Assembly (NCBI RefSeq): GCF_003071365.1
Contig: NZ_CP028960.1
Location: 620,001 to 684,000, forward strand
Source of the DNA: Methyloceanibacter sp. wino2
Lineage (GTDB): Bacteria; Pseudomonadota; Alphaproteobacteria; Rhizobiales; Methyloligellaceae
DNA: 64,000 nucleotides
Direction of reading: 5' to 3'
In this document: positions 9,369 through 22,900 of the stretch, in pieces
Layout: every line of letters starts with the position of its first letter
Position numbering within the stretch: the stretch's first letter is position 1
Position numbers and translations under genes: made by a program
Notes under the pieces: model-generated
The model's input: the letters and a program-made list of their open reading frames with translations, nothing else
Databases searched by the model: none
What the model was told of the DNA's origin: nothing

Positions 9369-10358
9369 CTAGGCGTCAGGCTTGCCCGGCATCACGGCGA
9401 CACCCCAGGGCAGACGTCCGACGGGCACGGACTTGACCGCCTTCAGCGAGTCGAGGTCGATGATCGTCATGTCGTTCGTCAGGCCGTTGGCCACGTAGTA
9501 TTTCTTGCCGTCCGCGCTGGTCTCGCCGTGCCAGGGGCGCTGACCGACCAGGATGTAGTCCACGACTTCCTTCTTGGCCGTGTCGATGACGGCAACGCGG
9601 TTGGACGGACCGAGCGGCACCATGACGAGCGACTCGTCCTTGACGAAGTCCATGCCGACCGGCTGAAGCTGCTCGGGACGCACGCCCGGCACCTCGAAGC
9701 GAATCTTGTTGGTGATCTCCCAGGTGGACGGATCGATCACGGAAACCGTGCCGCCCACTTCCGAAGAGACCCACAGCTCCTTGCCGTCCTTGGTCCACTT
9801 CGCCTCGCGCGGCCGGGAGTCGACCAGCACGTTGGCGATCAGCTGATGCGTTTCGTTGTCGATGATATGCGCCATGCTCGTGCTTTCCGAGGTGGCGGCG
9901 GTGTACTTGTTGTCCGGGCTGACTGCCATGCCTTCGGGCTCCACGCCCACCGGCACCTCGGCCAAGACGTCGCCGGAGCCGAGATCCATGATCGTGACCA
10001 TGCTGTCGTCTTCGTTGGCGATATAGATGATCTTGCCGTCGGGATCGATGTCCATCAATTCCGGATCAGGGCCGCTTTCGAGCTGTCGCGTGATCTTGAG
10101 CGTCTTGGTGTCGACAACGTCGATGATGTCGCCGTCACCGGCCGCGACGAACAGTTCCTTGTTGTCAGGGCTCAGGACGATGCCGCGCGGACGGCGCGAC
10201 GTCTCGATCGTATCGATGGTCTCCATCGTGTCGCCGTCGATGACCGTGACGGTGTTGTCTTTCTCGTTGGAGACGAAGATCGTCTCGGCGTGAGCCAGCG
10301 GAGCGGCGGCGAGAACAAACGCCGTCGCACAAACAGTTGCAAGGCCGATGCGTGTCAT
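9369..10358 (-). CDS. PQQ-associated YVTN beta-propeller protein, periplasmic
   Basis: 329 residues from ATG 10358 (MTRIGLATV), preceded by AAGGG; a longer frame start at 10394 would run into the upstream gene's end. There is a Sec signal peptide to about AHAE, then seven-blade-like repeats each containing an I-x-V-ID or VIDT strand (TVTVIDGDTMET, IIDVVDTKTLK, MVTIMDLGSGD and so on). It matches the family called PQQ-dependent catabolism-associated beta-propeller protein, found beside quinoprotein alcohol dehydrogenases; the exact role is not established. It lies 23 bases after a substrate-binding protein gene, and the two form one unit ended by the terminator at 9303-9337. Confidence 0.88.
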   Translation of the reverse strand: MTRIGLATVCATAFVLAAAPLAHAETIFVSNEKDNTVTVIDGDTMETIDTIETSRRPRGIVLSPDNKELFVAAGDGDIIDVVDTKTLKITRQLESGPDPELMDIDPDGKIIYIANEDDSMVTIMDLGSGDVLAEVPVGVEPEGMAVSPDNKYTAATSESTSMAHIIDNETHQLIANVLVDSRPREAKWTKDGKELWVSSEVGGTVSVIDPSTWEITNKIRFEVPGVRPEQLQPVGMDFVKDESLVMVPLGPSNRVAVIDTAKKEVVDYILVGQRPWHGETSADGKKYYVANGLTNDMTIIDLDSLKAVKSVPVGRLPWGVAVMPGKPDA

Positions 10359-10381
10359 TTGGTACCCTTTGCGGCAGCTCG

Positions 10382-11740
10382 TTAGAATTTGCACTTGGTT
10401 TCTGGTTTGTCGAAGCCGAGCGTGTCGGTGACGTATTTCGGATGCAGGAAGCCTTCCTGCGGCGACGTGGAGACCGGTACGCGGGTGCCGCCGCCCAGAA
10501 TGATCGGCTGGCGCATCTGGTGATCCCAGGGGCGGAAACTCAGCGCTTGGCCCTTGAAGGCCTCGAGCCGGAACTCGTCCGACAGCATGTAATCCTTCAC
10601 GCCCTTGGGATCGACCGTGCCGGACTTCTGCGCCGCGTCCGACAGAGCGCGGAGGCCCAGCCAGGCCGTATAATCCCGTTCGACCGGCGGGCGGTTTGCC
10701 AGACGCGGAATCGCGCGCTGAAAGCGCATGCCGCCCGACTCCGTGTAGGACTTGTCCCAGGCCGTCGCCTGAAGGCCCTGCGTACCCACTACCGGGCGGG
10801 GCATGGTGGTGCGGTACATCAGATAGTCGCCGAAATCGTCGTCGCTATTGATGGACCAAACGACGTCGTGCTCCGGCGCACGCTGCGTCTCCAGCGCCAT
10901 TTGCTGCTGGATCTGCTGATGGCCCGAGTCCAGATTCCGGGCTCCAGGGGGAAGGTCGTAGAGGTGGTCTTCCACCACCTTGCCGCCGAAGCGCTTGGCC
11001 GCACGCTGGACCTGGGCGAGATAATCCTGATCCTCGGGCGTATCGCGGCGGATGACATACCATTTCGGCCACTTCTTCCAGATCAGGTACTGCGCCAGGG
11101 CGTCGGCGCGCATCGCGTAGTCCGGAATGATATGGAAGACGTTCTGGCGGCATTCCTCCTGGCGCAGCTTGGTCGCGCTGGAGCGGATGTTCATGATGAG
11201 CGCGTCTTTGGCCTCTGGCAGATCGGCCACGGCCAGCAGATCGTCGGGCTCCAGGTCGGCGATGAAGAAGCGGTGGCCGGCCGCCAGCGCTTCCTTGGCC
11301 TTCGCCACGATGTCCTCGTCTGCGGGGATGATGACTTCCTCGAGCTCGAAGCCATAGCCGACGAAATTACCGGCCTGGTTCGCCTCCTTGAGCATGAGGC
11401 GCGCGCCTTGGATGCCTTTGTCGGTGATCACCTTCTCCGCGTAGGAGAGCGGGAGCGGCTCTTCGTATTCCTTACCGAGATAGACGACATGCATCGTCTT
11501 CTTGGCGGCGTCCGGCTTTGCAGCCTTCGGCTTGCCGGCATCCGCGGCAGCGTCGTCGCTAGCCTTCGGCTGCGCGTCGCCGGTCTTGGCTGGCGTCTCG
11601 ACGTCATCTGTGCCCGGGGCGTCTTGGGCACCAGCGGGCAAAGATCCAACAGCAAGAGCTGAAAAGAGGAGTGCCGCACTTACCAGTCCGAAAAAGCGGG
11701 TATGGGGCACACGGGGGGAAATTGAACGCAACGGCACCAT
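10382..11740 (-). CDS. PQQ-associated ABC-type substrate-binding protein, periplasmic
   Basis: Start taken at ATG 11740 (MVPLRSISPRVPHTRF), which gives a signal peptide ending near PAGAQ; the upstream extension has no signal-like character. 452 residues. After the signal comes a low-complexity Ala/Lys/Asp/Pro linker (about 40-80), then a branched-chain amino acid type two-lobed binding fold (HVVYLGKEYEEPLPLSYAEK onward). It resembles the substrate-binding protein family known next to PQQ-dependent dehydrogenases, usually together with the beta-propeller that follows here. No ABC ATPase or permease gene is adjacent. Confidence 0.82.
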   Translation of the reverse strand: MVPLRSISPRVPHTRFFGLVSAALLFSALAVGSLPAGAQDAPGTDDVETPAKTGDAQPKASDDAAADAGKPKAAKPDAAKKTMHVVYLGKEYEEPLPLSYAEKVITDKGIQGARLMLKEANQAGNFVGYGFELEEVIIPADEDIVAKAKEALAAGHRFFIADLEPDDLLAVADLPEAKDALIMNIRSSATKLRQEECRQNVFHIIPDYAMRADALAQYLIWKKWPKWYVIRRDTPEDQDYLAQVQRAAKRFGGKVVEDHLYDLPPGARNLDSGHQQIQQQMALETQRAPEHDVVWSINSDDDFGDYLMYRTTMPRPVVGTQGLQATAWDKSYTESGGMRFQRAIPRLANRPPVERDYTAWLGLRALSDAAQKSGTVDPKGVKDYMLSDEFRLEAFKGQALSFRPWDHQMRQPIILGGGTRVPVSTSPQEGFLHPKYVTDTLGFDKPETKCKF

Positions 11741-11944
11741 CTCTCTTGAACGTTTCCGACCAACATTTTTTGCCGAGGGCTTTGCGCCCTTCTGTCTCAG
11801 ACCTTCAGTCCCTTGGCAATGTGCGCTGCACAATACGGCTTATGCGCCAAGGCAAGAGGACGACGGTTCTGTACTAATGATATAGGCGCGCTCAGGAACC
11901 AATGCCAAGTGATGGTGCTTTTCATTACCAATGTTTTAGGACGC

Positions 11945-12008: not shown

Positions 12009-12527
12009 CTATTGACCGGGCGTCTGGGCCGGCTCGTTCACCTTCTTCATCGAGCTCGGGTTCTTCGAGCGGATGAACGCGATGACCTTCCACAGATCGT
12101 CGGATGTCTTGGCGATCGTGCCGAACGGCGGCATCGGGCCGGTCACGATTTCCTTACGGACACGCTTGTAGCCCTGCTCCTGCAGCTTGTCAGAGCCCTC
12201 GGCGATCAAGCGGAACACCGTGTCGTCGTCGGCGCCGTAGACCCAGGCATCGTTCGTCAGAGGCGGACACATGCCGCCGCCACCGCCGCCGCCATGGCAG
12301 CCGTTGCAGCTATAGGACAGATAGATCTTATGTCCCGCTTCCGCGACGCCATCGATTTCGTCGTTGTAGGGGTTGTGGAGACCGCCAACCGGGGTCTTCT
12401 CAATGAGTTCCAGCGGGGGCGTGGTGTCGCCCTTCTCGCAGCATTCCTCAGCACGAGCATCCAATGCAAACAGGCCAATCGCGCCGACAAAGGCGGCAGC
12501 TACTACTCCAGTAATAATCTTGCGCAC
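12009..12527 (-). CDS. xoxG: Periplasmic cytochrome c, likely XoxF electron acceptor (c-553i/XoxG-like)
   Basis: 172 residues with a signal peptide (cleavage near DARAEE) and one haem site CNGCH (C74, C77, H78) followed by an unusual run of seven Gly and MCPPLTNDAWVYG. The axial Met candidate is M132 in GPMPPFG. The glycine run and the DAWVYG block resemble cytochrome c-553i of Paracoccus and related XoxG-type cytochromes that accept electrons from methanol dehydrogenase. It lies in the xoxF-xoxJ neighbourhood but has its own promoter gap and terminator. An extra CC pair at residues 29-30 of the mature N-terminus is odd. Confidence 0.85.
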   Translation of the reverse strand: MRKIITGVVAAAFVGAIGLFALDARAEECCEKGDTTPPLELIEKTPVGGLHNPYNDEIDGVAEAGHKIYLSYSCNGCHGGGGGGGMCPPLTNDAWVYGADDDTVFRLIAEGSDKLQEQGYKRVRKEIVTGPMPPFGTIAKTSDDLWKVIAFIRSKNPSSMKKVNEPAQTPGQ

Positions 12528-13038: not shown

Positions 13039-13872
13039 CTATTGGGTGATCTCGAAATCCATATCCTCGAAGGTGTAGCGCGGCACCTGGATCCAGATGC
13101 CGTCCTCATTGATGGGGACCTTGTGGATCTTCACGTCCGTCACATTCAGCCGGCCCGTCTTCTCGTCGACCCAGAAGTCCACGTCGAAATACTCGTCCTT
13201 GCTGCCGACGCGCCGGAAGTCTGTACAGGCAAAGTAGTGGCCGTCCTTCTTGAGATAGCGAACCGGCTGGTGCATTTCGACGAACTCCAGCGGGATGGTC
13301 TCCCCGGTCTTCTCGTCCTTCAGTTCAAGCGCGCCGTCGTCGTTCTTGTTCTCGGCGATGTAGTTGTGGATGGCACTCATCACGTGCCAAGCCCGCACCA
13401 CTTCCATGTCGCCCGGATGCTCCTGCACCGGCAGCCACCACCAAGCGACCGGCAGACGGGTCACCATGATGTACCCATCGCCTTCGCGCTTCGGTCCCTT
13501 CTGAACGCGGATATCAATGAGATCGAGGCTGTCCCCGTCCCGTTGGGGCTTGAACCAGAAGTCGAGCGCGTATTGTTTCCGAGGATCTTCCTTGTCGTGG
13601 AAGATCGCATTCGCGAACCAGCCGTACCCTTTCATGCCGCGTACGACACGCATCTTCTCGTAGACGAGATTGAGGTCCTTGTTGAGCTTGGGATCGTGAA
13701 AGACGAACACACCGTCCTGCGACCGCTCTTTGATGACCGCTTCTGTTCGTGCCGTTACCGAGGCATCGTCGAAATCCGGATAGTCAGCCGCTTGCGCGAA
13801 ACCGACCGCTCCAAACAAAAGGGCCGCGGCGATCGCCGCAGCCCCCCAGTTTTTCCGCAGAATTCCGGTCAT
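13039..13872 (-). CDS. Secreted protein of unknown function in the xox cluster
   Basis: 277 residues with a clear Sec signal peptide (MTGILRKNWGAAAIAAALLF, cleavage near AQAAD). The mature part is rich in aromatic and charged residues (WFANAIFHDKEDPRK, RLPVAWWWLPV) with many paired Lys/Asp, and has a single Cys in YFACTDFRR; there are no haem, metal or membrane motifs. I do not recognise the family. It begins 4 bases after the XoxJ-ankyrin stop, so the two are almost certainly co-translated, and a periplasmic role in methanol dehydrogenase assembly or function is inferred only from that. Confidence 0.75.
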   Translation of the reverse strand: MTGILRKNWGAAAIAAALLFGAVGFAQAADYPDFDDASVTARTEAVIKERSQDGVFVFHDPKLNKDLNLVYEKMRVVRGMKGYGWFANAIFHDKEDPRKQYALDFWFKPQRDGDSLDLIDIRVQKGPKREGDGYIMVTRLPVAWWWLPVQEHPGDMEVVRAWHVMSAIHNYIAENKNDDGALELKDEKTGETIPLEFVEMHQPVRYLKKDGHYFACTDFRRVGSKDEYFDVDFWVDEKTGRLNVTDVKIHKVPINEDGIWIQVPRYTFEDMDFEITQ

Positions 13873-13876
13873 CGTA

Positions 13877-15706
13877 TCACTGCTTCACGGTGCTGCTGTC
13901 GTCGCTGTCTGCTTTCGTCGAAGCACTGGGCCGCGACAACGACAGAACCCGGATCGCCTGCGAGGCTTCCTTGTTGTCGTTGAGATTGGCGACATCGACG
14001 GCTGTCTGGCCTTCCGTATTCTTGACGTCCGGGTCGGCGCCGGCCGCCATCAGCAGGCCGATCATCGGGGCACTGTTGTTTGCAGCCGCGATCATCAGCG
14101 CCGTCATGCCATTCGCCGCCTGTGCGTCGATATTGGCACCCTCATCGACCAGCGCCTTGGCAATGTCGGTGGGGCGAACACTTCCCGGCAAGAAGATCGA
14201 CCCTTCCGCAGGGCCTGTCTGCGCCGCGACAACCATCAGCGGGGTCAAGCCCTGCTTGCCCGAGGCGACACTGACATCGGCACCGCCGTTCATCAGCGCC
14301 TTCGCGGCCTCGTACTTCTTCTCCGCCAGCGCCAGGGCGAGCGGCCGGAAGTCTTCCTGACCCGGCACCTCAACATCGGCGCCGTGCTCGATCAGAGTCT
14401 TGATCGAGGGAACGTGGTCCCGCATCAGCGCCGCCGCCAAGGGCGTCATGCCATTGCCGTCAGCCTTGTTGGGATCGGCGCCCAACTCGACCAGAAGGTC
14501 GATCGTCTCGTCCCGCCGTTGGCGGGCTGCGGCCGTCAACGGGGTCCAGCCCTGCAAGTCCGGCTTGTTCACGTCGGCGCCCTTGGACACGAGGAATTTG
14601 ATGCGGTCCTTGTCGCCGGACAGGAGCGCGTTGCTCAGTTCCTGATTGGGATCCGCCCCGTCTTCCAGCCAGCCTTCCAGCTTCTCCTGGGTCACGATCT
14701 GATCGGGCGAAGCGAGATCGGGACGCGCCTCGAACTTCTGATCGGCAAGCTTGATGTAGCTGCCGTGGGCCGGCAGATCACCGGGAACGTAGCACTTGCT
14801 GCACTGGACCAGCGGCACGCCGTATTCCTTCATCAGCGCGGTGAGTTCCTCAGCCTTGTCGTCCATGGCCCATTCGAGGAGGTATTTGAGGAAGACGTCC
14901 GTCGGACGCACGCCGATCGACATCTCGAATTCCATCGGCACCGTGTCGTCGTCGAGGTTGATGGGAACGATGTCGACGGGCTCGTTCTTCATGGTCTTCA
15001 CCCAACCGGCGAACGGCCCGAATACGGCTGCAACGTCGAATTCTCCATCCAGCATTCTCTGGATCACGTACCAGGGCTGATTCTCGGGCACGAGGTCGCC
15101 GTCGTGGGTTTGGAGCTGCAGCTTCACGTTGTCGATGATGCCGCGCTTCGCCATCGCCTGGCGCACACCGGAGGTCTGGAAGACGCCGATGGTCAGATCC
15201 TTCAACTTGGGATCGTCCAGGCCCGACAGCTTCAAGCCCTTGTCGTTGCGGTAAACCAAGACATACGGCGTCTTGTAGACCGGCTCGGTCGTAAGCAGAC
15301 GCTCATAGCCCGTGGGAATGTCGAACATGACGTCGCAGAGGCGTTCGTCGAAGGTCGACCGGGTCAGGCCGCGCTCGATAAAGGGCTGCCAGTGATACTT
15401 GATCGTGGCGCCAGTCGCGTCGGCGAGGATTTCGGCCATCTTGTTCTGAAAGCCCTCTCGCTGAATGCTGGAGAGCGGCATGTTCCCGGGGTCGGCACAG
15501 ACATTCAGGGTCTTGAGCTTCTTGCTCTTATAGGCGGCCTTCGCGGCGGCACGGATCGCGATGTGCTCGGCGGGGGTCAGTTCTTCATAGGTCTTATTGA
15601 GATCGCGCCGGACAGGCTGCTTGTCGTCGGCGTGGGCCGACACAACAGAGATCGCAAGCGCAGCGACTGCAATTGTCGCGGAAAGTCTGGAAATTCGGAA
15701 TGGCAC
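13877..15706 (-). CDS. xoxJ: XoxJ/MxaJ-like periplasmic binding protein fused to ankyrin repeats
   Basis: GTG 15706 is preferred: TGAGGC stands 9 bases upstream and it yields a normal signal peptide (PFRISRLSATIAVAALAISV, ending near AHA). ATG 15775 would add 23 residues before it. The 609-residue product has a solute-binding domain of the quinoprotein-dehydrogenase-associated type (about 35-300, with NVCADPGNMPLS), the protein class to which MxaJ/XoxJ belong. A CSKC pair follows (about 302-305), then five to six ankyrin repeats (about 340-590; TPLTAAARQRRDE, TPLAAALMRDH, TALMIAAANN). Usual family members are about 300 residues, so the C-terminal half is extra. It lies directly downstream of xoxF and probably activates it. 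Confidence 0.9.
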   Translation of the reverse strand: MPFRISRLSATIAVAALAISVVSAHADDKQPVRRDLNKTYEELTPAEHIAIRAAAKAAYKSKKLKTLNVCADPGNMPLSSIQREGFQNKMAEILADATGATIKYHWQPFIERGLTRSTFDERLCDVMFDIPTGYERLLTTEPVYKTPYVLVYRNDKGLKLSGLDDPKLKDLTIGVFQTSGVRQAMAKRGIIDNVKLQLQTHDGDLVPENQPWYVIQRMLDGEFDVAAVFGPFAGWVKTMKNEPVDIVPINLDDDTVPMEFEMSIGVRPTDVFLKYLLEWAMDDKAEELTALMKEYGVPLVQCSKCYVPGDLPAHGSYIKLADQKFEARPDLASPDQIVTQEKLEGWLEDGADPNQELSNALLSGDKDRIKFLVSKGADVNKPDLQGWTPLTAAARQRRDETIDLLVELGADPNKADGNGMTPLAAALMRDHVPSIKTLIEHGADVEVPGQEDFRPLALALAEKKYEAAKALMNGGADVSVASGKQGLTPLMVVAAQTGPAEGSIFLPGSVRPTDIAKALVDEGANIDAQAANGMTALMIAAANNSAPMIGLLMAAGADPDVKNTEGQTAVDVANLNDNKEASQAIRVLSLSRPSASTKADSDDSSTVKQ

Positions 15707-15802
15707 GGGCGTTCGCCTCAACTGGTAAGGCGGGGCCGATCGGCGGGACTTGATCCCACCAGGCTTACCCGCCATGGGGGTCTATTTCTTCCCGGAATAT
15801 AT

Positions 15803-15864: not shown

Positions 15865-17754
15865 TTACTCGTAAATGCGGAAGACGTTCAGCGTACCGCC
15901 CTGCGGGATATGCTGCAGGCCAGCGGCCTTGGTCATGGCCGTAGCACCGATGGCGCCGAACTTATCGTTCAGGTCCAGACCAGCGGTGACCGGAAGACCG
16001 ATCCAGCCGCCAATGCCGGAGTACACGCCAACGTACTGCTTGCCACCAACCTTGTAGGTGATCGGGTTACCGATGATACCCGAACCCAGCTTGCGGCTCC
16101 ACAGGACCTTACCGGAGCTCCGGTCGACTGCGCGGAAGTCACCGCCCAGCGAGCCGTAGAACACCAGACCACCGTCGGTGACCATCGTACCACCCCAGTT
16201 CGGATACGGATCCGGGATTTCCCAGAGCGTCTTGCCCGAAAGGACGTCGTACTTCTTGATCTTGCCGGTCGTGCCCTGCTTTTCAGGATACATGTACACG
16301 TTCGCGAACACGTAAACCGTGCCCTGGTTCGTGTGCGTGCGCTCCTGAGGCTCGAGCTCCATGCACCAGTTGTTGGTGGGCATGTAGAAGACGTTCGGCT
16401 CCTTCGGATCAACAGCACCAGGCTGCTGGTCCTTACCACCCATCGCAGACGGGCAGGCAGAGACGTTACGGCCAACTTCGAGCGGCGAGTGGTCACGCAC
16501 CTTGATCGGACGGCCGGTCTTCATGTCGACCTTCTCAGCCCAGTCCGTGGTCACGTACTTCGTGGCGCGCAGAAGCGTGCCGTCGGTACGATCCATGACG
16601 TAGGCAAAGCCATTACGATCGAAGTGGGTGAGAGCCTTCACCTTCTTACCGTCAATTTCCATGTCGGTAAGAATGTTCTCGTTGATGCCGTCATAGTCCC
16701 ACTGGTCAAACGGAGTCATCTGATAGGCCCAGACAGCGTCGCCGTTTTCGATCTTACGAGCGAAGATCGTCATCGACCACTTGTTGTCGAACGCACCAGT
16801 GTTGCACTCCTCATGGGTCTTATCGGGGCAACGATAGGACGGGCTCCACAGGCCGGGGTTACCGGTCGAGTAGTAGACCAGCTTCAGCTCGGGATCGTAG
16901 GAATACCAACCCCAAGCAGCACCACCACCAATCTTGTAGTCCTCACCGGGGAAGGTCTTGATACCAAGATCCTCACCAGCCTGACCGAATTGGGGGTTGG
17001 CCTTGTTGGTTTCAGGCGTCAGGCACACGTCCTTGTCGGAACCCGTGCTGTGGCACACCCAAGCCTCGGAACCGTCTGCAAGATTGAAGGCGGCAACGCG
17101 GCCACGAGCGGCGAACTCATCGCCACCAAAGCCCATGAACACCTTGTTATCGGCGATCAACGGAGCCGGCGTGATGGTCTCACCCTTCTCGGGATAGGCG
17201 TACTTGACGACCCAAACTTCCTTACCGGTCTGGCCGTCCAGGGCAATCACGAAACCATCGAGAGTGCCATAAACGAACTTGCCATCGGCATAGGAGCCGC
17301 CACGGTTGACGGTGTCGCAGCAAGCGCGCGGCACAGCCGACTCGTCACGGTCGGTCTTCTTGACATACGACCAAACCTGCTTCGGGTTGTCGGCATCCGT
17401 CAAATCGAGAGCCTGAACAACGTTACAGTTGGCCATGGACGGGCAACCAGAAACCATGAACAGCATGGTCTTGCCACCAACATCCTTAATCACAAGCGGC
17501 TGACCCTCGTGACCACGAAGGGCGTTCGTGCCCTGGGCCCAAGACATCTGCAGCTTGTTGACGTTATCGGTCGTAATGTCTGAGAGCGTGCTGTGACGCG
17601 TCAGCTGAAAGTCACGACCAGGGGCAGGCCACTGGTCGGGATCAGCCATGCGCTTCAGCTGCTCTTCGTCGGTGTTCATAGCCGACGCCTGGCCAGCAAG
17701 ACCCATCGTCACTGCGACGATGGTGCCAGTCAGGACACCATACTTCAGTTTCAT
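15865..17754 (-). CDS. xoxF: Lanthanide-type PQQ methanol dehydrogenase XoxF, copy 1
   Basis: Periplasmic quinoprotein oxidising methanol; 629 residues with signal peptide (cleavage near GQASA). Active-site features: vicinal disulfide CC at 145-146 (RACCDTVNRG), metal ligand E213 (DEFAARG), N299 (YYSTGNPG), catalytic D353 and the extra D355 in DQWDYDG. That extra Asp replaces the Ala of calcium MxaF and marks lanthanide-dependent XoxF. No mxaI small-subunit gene is nearby. The N-terminal region differs from common XoxF5 proteins, so another clade such as XoxF1 is possible. It has its own leader and terminator; electrons likely go to the cytochrome at 12009-12527. Confidence 0.95.
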   Translation of the reverse strand: MKLKYGVLTGTIVAVTMGLAGQASAMNTDEEQLKRMADPDQWPAPGRDFQLTRHSTLSDITTDNVNKLQMSWAQGTNALRGHEGQPLVIKDVGGKTMLFMVSGCPSMANCNVVQALDLTDADNPKQVWSYVKKTDRDESAVPRACCDTVNRGGSYADGKFVYGTLDGFVIALDGQTGKEVWVVKYAYPEKGETITPAPLIADNKVFMGFGGDEFAARGRVAAFNLADGSEAWVCHSTGSDKDVCLTPETNKANPQFGQAGEDLGIKTFPGEDYKIGGGAAWGWYSYDPELKLVYYSTGNPGLWSPSYRCPDKTHEECNTGAFDNKWSMTIFARKIENGDAVWAYQMTPFDQWDYDGINENILTDMEIDGKKVKALTHFDRNGFAYVMDRTDGTLLRATKYVTTDWAEKVDMKTGRPIKVRDHSPLEVGRNVSACPSAMGGKDQQPGAVDPKEPNVFYMPTNNWCMELEPQERTHTNQGTVYVFANVYMYPEKQGTTGKIKKYDVLSGKTLWEIPDPYPNWGGTMVTDGGLVFYGSLGGDFRAVDRSSGKVLWSRKLGSGIIGNPITYKVGGKQYVGVYSGIGGWIGLPVTAGLDLNDKFGAIGATAMTKAAGLQHIPQGGTLNVFRIYE

Positions 17755-18469: not shown

Positions 18470-20386
18470 TTAGTCGTAGATGCGGAAGACGTTCAGGGTG
18501 CCACCCTGCGGGACATGCTGCAGGCCAGCGGCCTTGGTCATGGCCGTCGCACCGATGGCGCCGAACTTATCGCTCAGGTCCAGACCAGCGGTGACCGGAA
18601 GACCGATCCAGCCGCCAATGCCGGAGTACACGCCGACGTACTGCTTGCCGCCGGTCTTGAACGTGATCGGGTTACCGATGATGCCCGAGCCCAACTTGCG
18701 GCTCCACAGGATCTTACCGGTCTCCCGGTCGACCGCGCGGAAATCACCGCCCAGCGAACCGTAGAACATCAGACCACCGTCGGTGTTCATGGTGCCGCTC
18801 CAGTTCGGATACGGATCCGGGATCTCCCAGAGCGTCTTACCCGTCAGGACGTCGTACTTCTTGATCTTGCCGGTCACGCCCTGCTTCTCAGGATACATGT
18901 ACACGTTCGCGAACACGTAGACCGTGCCCTGGTTCGTGTGCGTGCGCTCCTGGGGCTCCAGCTCCATGCACCAGTTGTTGGTGGGCACATAGAACAGGTT
19001 CGGCTCCTTCGGATCGACCGAAGCGGGCTGCTGGTCCTTGCCACCCATCGCGGACGGGCAGGCAGAGACGTTGCGGCCAACCTCGAGCGGCGAATGATCG
19101 CGCACCTTGATCGGACGGCCCGTCTTGAGATCGATCTTCTCGGCCCAGTCCGTCGTCACGTATTTCGTGGCGCGCAGAACGGTACCGTCGGCAGCATCCC
19201 AGACATAGGCGAAGCCGTTGCGGTCGAAGTGGGAGAGAACCTTCCGCTTCTTACCGTCGACTTCCATCTCCGTGATGATGTTCTCGTTGATGCCGTCATA
19301 GTCCCACTGGTCAAACGGCGTGATCTGGTAGACCCAGACAGCCTCACCAGTCTCGATCTTCCGAGCGAACATGCTGAGGGTCCACTTGTTGTCGAAGCGA
19401 CCCACCTGCCCGTCGAGTGAAGGATCGACTGCGTTGCACTCCTCGTGGGTCTTGTCGGGGCAGCGATATTGCGGGCTCCACAGACCTGGGTTGGCGGTCG
19501 AGTAGTAGACCAGCTTGGTGTCCGGATCGTAGGAGTACCAACCCCACGCCGTGCCGCCACCGATCTTCCAATCCTCACCGGGGAAGGTCTTGATACCAAG
19601 ATCCTGTCCGGCCGTGCCGTAATGCGGGTTGGCCTTGTTGGTCTCGGGCGTCAGGCAGACGTCTTTGTCCGAACCCGTGGTGTGACACACCCAAGCCTCG
19701 GAACCGTCCGCCAGGTTGAAGGCGCCGACGCGGCCGCGAGCGGCGAACTCACTACCACCGAAACCGATGAACACTTTGTTGTCGGCGATCAACGGAGCCG
19801 GCGTGATGGTCTCACCCTTCTCGGGATAGGCCCATTTCACAACCCAGACTTCCTTGCCGGTCTGGCCGTCGAGCGCGATCAAGAAGCCGTCGAGCGTGCC
19901 GAACACGAACTTGCCGTCCGCATAGGAACCGCCGCGGTTGACGGTGTCGCAGCAAGCGCGCGGCACAGCCGACTCGTCGCGGTCGGTCTTTTTCACATAC
20001 GACCAAACCTGCTTCGGATTGTCGGGATCCGAAAGATCCAGACCCTGAACCACGTTACAATTGGCCATGGACGGGCAACCCGAAATCATGAACAGCATGG
20101 TCTTGCCACCCACGTCCTTGATCACAAGCGGCTGACCTTCGTGACCGCGAAGGGCGTTCGTGCCCTGCATCCACGCCATCTGCAGCTTGTTCACATTATC
20201 CGTCGTAATGTCGGACAGGTTGCTGTGACGCGTCAGAGCAAAGTCACGACCAGGGGCGGGCCACTGGTCGGGATCAGCCATACGCTTCAGCTGTTCCTCG
20301 TCGGTATTCATGGCCGACGCCTGACCAGCGAGCCCCATCGTCACTGCGACGACGGTGCCGGTCAGGACACCTAACTTGAGTTTCAT
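18470..20386 (-). CDS. xoxF: Lanthanide-type PQQ methanol dehydrogenase XoxF, copy 2
   Basis: 638 residues, by eye roughly nine-tenths identical to copy 1 over most of the length, so a tandem duplication. It carries the same key residues: CC 145-146, E213 (SEFAARG), N299, catalytic D362 and lanthanide-type D364. Two differences stand out. Copy 2 has nine extra residues around AVDPSLDGQVGRFDNKW (about 319-331), in the loop before the catalytic strand, and it has Ala instead of Gly just before the metal ligand Asn (STAN against STGN). The leader bases are identical to copy 1. It has its own terminator and about 430 bases of upstream noncoding sequence. Confidence 0.95.
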   Translation of the reverse strand: MKLKLGVLTGTVVAVTMGLAGQASAMNTDEEQLKRMADPDQWPAPGRDFALTRHSNLSDITTDNVNKLQMAWMQGTNALRGHEGQPLVIKDVGGKTMLFMISGCPSMANCNVVQGLDLSDPDNPKQVWSYVKKTDRDESAVPRACCDTVNRGGSYADGKFVFGTLDGFLIALDGQTGKEVWVVKWAYPEKGETITPAPLIADNKVFIGFGGSEFAARGRVGAFNLADGSEAWVCHTTGSDKDVCLTPETNKANPHYGTAGQDLGIKTFPGEDWKIGGGTAWGWYSYDPDTKLVYYSTANPGLWSPQYRCPDKTHEECNAVDPSLDGQVGRFDNKWTLSMFARKIETGEAVWVYQITPFDQWDYDGINENIITEMEVDGKKRKVLSHFDRNGFAYVWDAADGTVLRATKYVTTDWAEKIDLKTGRPIKVRDHSPLEVGRNVSACPSAMGGKDQQPASVDPKEPNLFYVPTNNWCMELEPQERTHTNQGTVYVFANVYMYPEKQGVTGKIKKYDVLTGKTLWEIPDPYPNWSGTMNTDGGLMFYGSLGGDFRAVDRETGKILWSRKLGSGIIGNPITFKTGGKQYVGVYSGIGGWIGLPVTAGLDLSDKFGAIGATAMTKAAGLQHVPQGGTLNVFRIYD

Positions 20387-20816: not shown

Positions 20817-21467
20817 CTACCGCTGCATTTTACTGTTGGCGGCTGGAAGATGCTGAATGGCGATTCGCATGAGTTCCGGCAACGTCCGCACACCAAGCTT
20901 TGCCTTCAACTGCGTGCAGGTGTTGGCCACGGTCTTGTAGCTCACGTGCAGATGCTCGGCGATGACTCCGTACGGCTTCCCTTCCGCCACGAGGGCAAGG
21001 GTCTGCAGTTCGCGAACCGTCATGCGGCGTAGCGGATTGGTCGTACCGCGCGCTTCCATGAAGGCAACCTCCGACGCGAGGTCGTGGCTGAGATAGGGCC
21101 TGTTCTCCCGGACGCGCTGAAACGCCGTTTGAACTTCCTCGGGCGGCGTATCCTTGAGGACGTAACCCGTGGCCCCGACCTCGAGCGCACGCGACACGAT
21201 CACCGGATCGGAATGCATCGTGAAAACCAGGATGGGTGTGTTCGGATCGTGCAGCCGCAGGCGACGGATAAACGACAGGCCGCCGAGCGACCCGCTATGC
21301 ATGGCAAGGTCGACAATGATCACGTCGGGCTTCTGCATTCTGTAGGCACGGAAACCGTCGGCCAAACTCTGTGCCTGATGCACTTCTTTTACGCCGACAT
21401 CCTCCAGTAACTGCCGGGTTCCCTGCAAAACGATCGGATGATCGTCGATGACGAGGACTCTAGTCAT
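20817..21467 (-). CDS. NarL/FixJ-type response regulator (MoxX-like)
   Basis: 216 residues: receiver domain with D8/D9 and phosphoacceptor D53 (VIIVDLAMH), switch Lys in YVLKD, then a LuxR-type helix-turn-helix (about 148-200, MTVRELQTLALVAEGKPYGV). It overlaps the kinase gene by ATGA. The pair sits just upstream of xoxF copy 2. It resembles the MoxYX and FlhSR systems that control methanol oxidation in Paracoccus, and xoxF control is inferred from position and type. Confidence 0.88.
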   Translation of the reverse strand: MTRVLVIDDHPIVLQGTRQLLEDVGVKEVHQAQSLADGFRAYRMQKPDVIIVDLAMHSGSLGGLSFIRRLRLHDPNTPILVFTMHSDPVIVSRALEVGATGYVLKDTPPEEVQTAFQRVRENRPYLSHDLASEVAFMEARGTTNPLRRMTVRELQTLALVAEGKPYGVIAEHLHVSYKTVANTCTQLKAKLGVRTLPELMRIAIQHLPAANSKMQR

Positions 21468-22900
21468 GATAGCTCCCTGACCGATTCTCGCGCCCGAACG
21501 GGCGCCGTAGATTCATTTTTTTTCTGCTTGATTGGAATTTCGACGCGAACGGTGGTGCCCTTGGATGGGACACCCTCGATCACGCAGGTACCGCCGACCG
21601 ATCTGACGCGCTCCGTCATGGTCGTAAGTCCGAAACCTTTGGCTTTGTCTGGCTCCATGCCTTTGCCGTCGTCCGCGATCGTCAGACGGACCGCTTCGTA
21701 ATCGCCGGCGCCGTTCGCGAGCTGCATCTGGTCCAGATCCACATCGATGTTTCCTGCATGCCCGTGGCGGATCGCATTGGTGATCGCCTCCTGAACGCAG
21801 CGATAAATCGCAAGATCGACAGACTCCCCGTAGGATTTCGCGACCGATCCGACGGCCGTATGAATCTGCGTATCGGGGTGTTGGCTTTGAAGACCAGCGG
21901 TGAGCTCGACGATCAGGTCCGCCAGCTTGACCTGGCCGAGCGGGCCCGGCCGCAGCTTCTTGAGAAGCCCCCGGTTCATGACCTTCAACCGTTCCGCAAT
22001 CGAGAGGATCTCACCGGCGCGGCTGGAAATCCTCGTCGCCCGTTCCCCGTCCAAATGCCCTGCCGTGGTTTGGATCGACGACGCGTTCGCGGCAATGCCG
22101 AACAGACAGGCGCCCGCCTCGTCGTGGAGTTCGTTGGCGATTTCGCGGCGCTCGGCTTCCTGAACGTTGATTAGCTGCTGGTAGAGGCTCTCGTTCTCCT
22201 TGCGTGCCACGTCCAGCGCGCTTGCCAGCATGTTGAACCGATCCGTGATGACGGCCACTTCCTTGACCTTCGCACTCGGCAACCTGGCCCAATACTCACC
22301 ACCCTCCAGCTGGTGCATGCCTCGAGATAGGCTCGCAAGCGGATTGAGCACCCGCCCGAGCACAATGTAGAGCACCACCAAGACAATGGCGTTGATGGCG
22401 CCCCAGATCAGCGCAAGCGAGAGAAAGTCCTGCCAGGCCTCCGAGATTTCGTCGGACGGCTCTCCGAGAATGATCACAGGATGCGAACCGTCCGGGAGAA
22501 GGCGCACCTTCCTTTGGGCGATCTCGGGATGGACCAGGGAAACGAACCAGCCGGGAGCATGGGATCCCTTGACCCCGGCGGCGGCGCCCTTGGGCGAAAT
22601 GATGGCCAGCTGGCCGGAGTCGCTCAAGAACATGATGCGGACGTGCCGCAGATGTCTCAGCAGGGGCGGCAGTTCCTCGTCGAGGTCATCCAGCTTGCCT
22701 TGCCGGGAGAGATCCCTGAGCGTCACGTCGACGAAGCGTTCGGCGACTTCGAGCGACGACTCCATCTCGGCCTTGGTCGCCGTGCGCGTGTTGAGAATCG
22801 CAACGACGCCGGCCAACAAGGCGGCAAAGAGATTGATCGCCGCCACGACCACAATAAGTTGGGTGCGAACTGGCTGATCATACCAGAGCTTTTGCAGCAC
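21464..22900 (-). CDS. Membrane sensor histidine kinase (NarX/MoxY-like)
   Basis: 478 residues. Transmembrane segments are at about 13-36 and 160-182, flanking a periplasmic sensor region of roughly 120 residues. Then come HAMP, a HisKA_3 box with H259 (ANELHDEAGACLFGI), and an HATPase domain with N-box (CVQEAITNAIRHG) and DDGKGM / KGFGLTTM. The kinase comes first in the operon and couples to the regulator by a 4-base overlap. The sensed signal is not evident. The upstream region carries a motif shared with xoxF copy 1, suggesting common or autogenous control. Confidence 0.9.
   Translation of the reverse strand: MLQKLWYDQPVRTQLIVVVAAINLFAALLAGVVAILNTRTATKAEMESSLEVAERFVDVTLRDLSRQGKLDDLDEELPPLLRHLRHVRIMFLSDSGQLAIISPKGAAAGVKGSHAPGWFVSLVHPEIAQRKVRLLPDGSHPVIILGEPSDEISEAWQDFLSLALIWGAINAIVLVVLYIVLGRVLNPLASLSRGMHQLEGGEYWARLPSAKVKEVAVITDRFNMLASALDVARKENESLYQQLINVQEAERREIANELHDEAGACLFGIAANASSIQTTAGHLDGERATRISSRAGEILSIAERLKVMNRGLLKKLRPGPLGQVKLADLIVELTAGLQSQHPDTQIHTAVGSVAKSYGESVDLAIYRCVQEAITNAIRHGHAGNIDVDLDQMQLANGAGDYEAVRLTIADDGKGMEPDKAKGFGLTTMTERVRSVGGTCVIEGVPSKGTTVRVEIPIKQKKNESTAPVRARESVRELS

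Follow-up and report, generated by a model that had tools for sequence, protein, structure and literature searches.

XoxJ is one of the chief candidates for the protein through which lanthanide and PQQ find their way into the methanol dehydrogenase XoxF. A locus of Methyloceanibacter sp. wino2 adds a question of its own: what is a XoxJ-like protein, encoded directly after a xoxF gene, doing with a set of ankyrin repeats in the same reading frame? The locus lies within a stretch of 64,000 nucleotides (contig NZ_CP028960.1, positions 620,001 to 684,000), which we refer to as the window and in which all features below are numbered unless another locus is named. On balance we think it somewhat probable that the protein matures or activates XoxF1-type lanthanide methanol dehydrogenases specifically, as a secreted factor with two heads, of which the ankyrin half docks a second periplasmic protein.

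Architecture of the fusion protein

The fusion is encoded on the minus strand (13877..15775) by a single uninterrupted frame of 632 codons, running from an ATG at 15775 to the stop at 13877. An earlier note on this DNA had the protein begin at 15706, and this is still the likely start, a GTG preceded closely on its 5′ side by GAGG, although the frame itself is open further, up to the ATG. Initiation at the GTG gives a protein of 609 aa with what is, by eye, a compact signal peptide (residues 24–49 of the longer frame; 15629..15706, minus strand), and the first codons of the 632-aa frame are of low conservation among the aligned fusions. Since this start yields so neat a signal peptide, the mature protein is probably periplasmic.

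The binding-protein half (residues 90–323; 14807..15508, minus strand) belongs to the XoxJ/MxaJ type. The window protein scores 224.4 bits on TIGR03871, the model for quinoprotein-dehydrogenase-associated binding proteins of the XoxJ class, whose curated cut-off is 212.15, and all 29 aligned fusions match the same model at E ≤ 0.001; on TIGR03870, the MoxJ model (MxaJ equivalog), it scores 107.4 bits, under the cut-off of 258.1. The nearest solved structure to this half is that of XoxJ, 6onp (E 7e-34), followed by 5sv6 and 9ism. The ankyrin half (residues 376–613; 13937..14650, minus strand) scores over the Pfam gathering thresholds of Ank_2, Ank_4 and Ank, with 111 bits against 27.3 for Ank_2. 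An AlphaFold2 model predicts seven helix pairs between residues 376 and 613, the fifth carrying a loop insertion, with pLDDT of about 70–90 save in the loop near residues 520–532; for the binding-protein half pLDDT is mostly below 50, which makes that part of the model unreliable and the whole uninformative on domain arrangement. The union of a XoxJ-class protein and ankyrin repeats in one frame, as first proposed from the letters of the window, is therefore borne out by TIGR03871, by Pfam and by the open frame. The repeats are real, but the five to six originally counted become seven helix pairs in the model.

The CxxC junction

The two halves are joined by a junction (residues 324–375; 14651..14806, minus strand) that contains the motifs CSKC and GDLPAHG, and the sequence linking the binding half to the ankyrin half is CSKCYVPGDLPAHG. 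The CSKC pair, already noticed at the domain boundary in the earlier note, was located from the frame and the alignment at residues 325–328 (14792..14803, minus strand), and both cysteines, C325 and C328, are invariant in 29/29 aligned fusions. Another 12 fusions (L100–L103, L105–L108, L149 and L150–L152) likewise have a CxxC with GxL or GxI after it, and no such CxxC/GxL junction was found in any of the ten unfused relatives read (eight distinct and two others). At the level of the alignments, the junction is a family mark of the fusions. A haem c site at CSKC was considered and can be ruled out, because the CxxCH motif is absent from all 29 aligned fusions.

The same pattern of invariance in fusions and absence from unfused relatives could be taken to mean that activity resides in the junction itself, which would serve vicinal disulfide formation or metal delivery as a thiol switch or metal site and which the ankyrin half would only position. 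We consider this quite unlikely, given that a vicinal cysteine pair is present without a CxxC helper in 5/5 dehydrogenases read beside unfused or MxaJ-type proteins, and that a plain structural disulfide fits the conserved cysteines equally well.

Distribution, origin and selection

A search of other genomes, suggested in the earlier note, finds the same domain pair recurring in the genus, family and order of the window, in another order and in another class. Within the genus the fusion occurs in 14/17 genomes (with a split copy in each of G003, G015 and G016), and the three in which none was found are all 81–85% complete. The genome of the window has a second copy, 47% identical to the first and likewise immediately after a XoxF gene, and G001 also carries the fusion twice (L055, L060). 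Within the family it is present in 17/30 genomes (the G020 copy is split) and absent from 13/30. Counts from the larger samples are lower bounds, because the best three to four candidates per genome were scored under strict E limits. They amount to at least 18/297 and at least 23/397 genomes for the order, with carriers in families other than that of the window and a 24th match (G1058) that is unfused; to at least 1/386 for the class, the window's own genome being the only one among the matches listed; and to at least 3/397 for the phylum, namely the own genome, one belonging to a different order of the same class and one to a different class. The fusion occurs in 5/69 genomes of the family of the other-class carrier and in 1/71 of that of the other-order carrier. 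As for plasmid-borne copies, 52 plasmid records match the query, none covering 80% of it.

Fused and unfused binding domains separate cleanly. In a tree of 51 rows, drawn from one list of 49 loci with matches covering at least 200 query residues, a single branch with support 100/98 divides 33 fused from 18 unfused domains, so that one change between the two states is needed; the data do not fix the root, and the unfused side is a convenience set. The 29-member alignment (A1) omits the split or truncated draft copies L012/L028, L029/L036, L033/L038/L074, L037 and L049/L073, as well as L019/L062, the near-identical L008 and the intact L011/L027.

All three parts of the protein are under purifying selection. 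Comparison with Methyloceanibacter caenitepidi gives dN/dS values of 0.09 (binding half), 0.02 (junction) and 0.05 (ankyrin half); the ratio is below 1 in every computable pair and climbs as pairs become more distant, reaching 0.6 in the ankyrin half of L057, a value made unreliable by a dS close to saturation. An assembly error joining two separate genes is ruled out by the recurrence of the fusion across many genomes, by its single clade and by these ratios.

Selection also bears on the reading in which the ankyrin arm is purely structural, fixing the XoxJ half in place or giving a homodimer, with no separate client. Such a role would fit the fact that XoxF is the sole gene present at every place where the surroundings of the fusion were counted, and also the looser conservation of the arm in families f2 and f11, where identity to the window protein is 36–55% for the ankyrin half and 46–56% for the binding half. 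Against it stand the purifying selection on the ankyrin half (with the same caution for the most distant values, where dS nears saturation) and the retention of that half across two classes, and we hold it to be rather unlikely.

Two copies are aberrant. At L073 (6094–7347, in G284) the first half of the binding domain is lost, and the gene reads as a decaying copy. At L062 (2997–6083) a frame of 1028 aa runs from XoxJ and ankyrin regions into a LutA-like gene. A three-part fusion was rejected here: on inspection by eye, a frameshift close to where the ankyrin half ends carries translation on through the signal peptide that belongs to the neighbouring protein, for which reason L062 is no evidence of an interaction.

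The neighbouring XoxF

The XoxF encoded directly upstream of the fusion (15865..17754, minus strand) has the lanthanide-type DYD motif and an Asp212 that corresponds to Asp172 of the XoxF1 structure. Its nearest solved structure is 7o6z (866 bits, the next being 4mae with 559), which we take to be the XoxF1-type structure, the Asp and Cys positions agreeing. In the structural comparison reported in PMC8546591, the residue diagnostic of XoxF1 is an Asp near PQQ (Asp172 in M. thermophilum AP8), where the remaining structures of that comparison have Gly; a second feature is Cys240, which makes room for this Asp.

The diagnostic Asp is found in all 32 XoxF proteins directly upstream of fusions and in 34/35 when the second-class loci are included, L150 and L151 having the Asp motif and L152 an Asn; the XoxF neighbouring L149, 56% identical, stands outside this count. 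At the Cys240 site 32/32 XoxF proteins tested have Ala or Ser, i.e. the second XoxF1 feature is absent from them. At the Asp position, Gly or Ala is found in six distant dehydrogenases whose genes neighbour those of unfused or MxaJ-type proteins. In the order sample of 297 genomes at least 19 have a XoxF as close as these. The 19 comprise every one of the 18 fusion carriers, among them G020 and G284, whose only fusion copy is broken; the 19th, G038, cannot be judged for the fusion because its contig stops 348 bp past the XoxF gene (L125). Judged from these sequences, the fusion belongs with XoxF1-type enzymes.

Further upstream lies a second XoxF gene (18470..20386, minus strand), whose product is 88% identical to the first, with Ser where XoxF1 enzymes have the diagnostic Asp. 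Elsewhere in the genus, XoxF copies that stand alone have Asn (L139, L140) or Asp (L138) at that position, and in the paralogues with Ser or Asn the metal or substrate preference may be shifted. The tandem xoxF genes are directly preceded by those of a response regulator and a histidine kinase (20817–22900). Similar regulator and kinase pairs are found near several other fusion operons, which makes a dedicated two-component control of these operons possible.

Operon neighbourhood and candidate partners

Neighbouring genes were counted at 33 places with full flanks, which are not independent, as many genomes contribute a pair of them and the set contains close relatives. XoxF precedes the fusion at 33/33, and the most constant neighbour besides XoxF is a beta-propeller gene, found at 31 places within the distance limit and at L028 just beyond it, hence at 32/33, with a weak match (27% identity) at L101. 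A LutA-like binding protein is encoded at 26/33 places, and a cytochrome c follows the fusion at 20/33. At L064, L066, L070, L105 and L107 the propeller gene comes after the fusion, and neither a cytochrome gene nor a LutA-like one was found in the interval. The sole place without a propeller is that of the truncated copy L073, where no cytochrome, LutA-like or propeller match occurs within 6 kb. A different arrangement is seen at L028 (10967–14051, M. methanicus), where two tandem LutA-like genes have the cytochrome to one side and the propeller to the other.

In the window these genes all lie on the minus strand. The c-type cytochrome in the XoxG position (12009..12527) falls short of the threshold set for the cytochrome c(L) model, a TIGR03863-like binding protein (10382..11833) reaches 390.7 bits, below the cut-off of 413.6, and the beta-propeller (9369..10394) is over the cut-off of TIGR03866. 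From family and position, we infer that the last two are a LutA/PedA1-like and a LutB/PedA2-like protein. PMC9291206 describes the propeller and the binding protein encoded next to xoxF1 in M. silvestris as homologues of LutB and LutA. The presence of such genes is not specific to fusions, since in published descriptions of the Pseudomonas putida ped cluster both accompany an unfused XoxJ homologue.

The frequency of the LutA-like gene and the binding-protein fold of the first half together raise the idea that the fusion is itself the substrate- or lanthanide-complex-binding component of an ABC transporter, with an ankyrin half that touches the membrane complex. This seems very unlikely to us, as most of the operons already have a separate LutA-like binding protein, and as the role proposed for the fold in MxaJ and XoxJ is that of a methanol dehydrogenase helper.

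Next to the fusion, the window also encodes an orphan of 277 aa (13039..13872, minus strand), which the earlier note had named among the possible partners of the ankyrin repeats. The orphan is a duplicated domain, its two tandem halves being 25% identical (E 1e-6). No family match was found in Pfam, NCBIfam or PHROGs, and a Foldseek search with a low-confidence model gave multicystatin, a phytocystatin and latexin as best hits (E between 1e-3 and 1e-2, no hit reaching E ≤ 0.001), so that the domain is possibly cystatin-like. A second full or partial orphan copy is present at L063 and L058. A tblastn search with the window orphan, which very diverged ones may escape, finds it at 6/33 fusion places. 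The orphan is for this reason disfavoured as a general partner and is unlikely to be what the ankyrin arm is for.

On the neighbour counts, then, the LutB-like propeller and the XoxF dimer itself would be the likeliest proteins for the two-headed factor to dock; less likely candidates would be the cytochrome and the LutA-like binding protein, and the orphan an unlikely one.

Relation to known systems

XoxJ of Methylorubrum extorquens AM1 (6onp) resembles the fusion in its binding-protein fold and its VCxDPGNMP start, and the fold is common also to MxaJ (9ism) and 5sv6. In contrast to the fusion, these chains are of 284–300 aa, with no room for ankyrin repeats, and their alignments stop before any CxxC. 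The AM1 XoxF presumably belongs to another clade than the fusion-linked XoxF proteins. XoxJ is reportedly also found in one chain with a functional partner in the cytochrome cGJ (XoxG–XoxJ) of a methanotroph, where the partner is a cytochrome and not an ankyrin domain. A periplasmic ankyrin protein is known in AnkB of Pseudomonas aeruginosa, which is needed for the catalase KatB; it is encoded by a separate gene and has no binding-protein half.

By gene order alone, the operon can be likened to Msil_3146–3149 of Methylocella silvestris, whose tags run XoxF1, XoxJ1, XoxG1 and ABC binding protein with a YVTN propeller near; there XoxJ1 is repressed by lanthanum (log2 FC −6.0 on methanol), and the word ankyrin is absent from the main text of the paper (PMC9291206). 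No description of the fusion was found among the matches listed for open-licence papers dealing with ankyrin in connection with XoxF or methylotrophs, with XoxJ/MxaJ, or with XoxF1/Methylomirabilis. The XoxJ class and ankyrin repeats are each known families, and it is the joining of the two that appears to be new.

Proposed role

It has been suggested that XoxJ and MxaJ may bind a partly folded apo-enzyme for insertion of PQQ and metal (PMC12997753), and deletion of xoxJ in M. extorquens has the same consequence on methanol plus lanthanum as the loss of the two XoxF proteins (PMC7391723). From this proposed role and this phenotype it follows that the fusion should hold XoxF1 by its first half. 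The chain lists of PDB entries 9ism and 9iso name both a methanol dehydrogenase alpha chain and an MxaJ chain.

In the mechanism we propose, the XoxJ-like half would hold the apo-form of the adjacent XoxF, as MxaJ is thought to do with MxaF, while PQQ and metal enter. The ankyrin half, tethered through the conserved CxxC junction, would dock one more periplasmic protein beside the enzyme, a scaffold function that is plausible for such an arm. A bolder version, which we regard as unlikely, makes the fusion a dedicated periplasmic platform on which XoxF1 receives its lanthanide and PQQ: the XoxJ half would open the apo-enzyme and the ankyrin arm would recruit the LutB-like propeller, together with the LutA-like metal carrier where present, so coupling metal delivery to cofactor insertion. 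If true, this would to our knowledge be the first scaffold for lanthanide insertion.

A conserved XoxJ protein with a docking module, tied to one type of XoxF, means that the ankyrin half could be used as bait in pull-downs, and a cultured host is available in Methyloceanibacter caenitepidi Gela4 (taken here as G001), with its two copies. What the fusion suggests is that in one bacterial branch a XoxJ-type helper may bring its enzyme together with a second, candidate partner.
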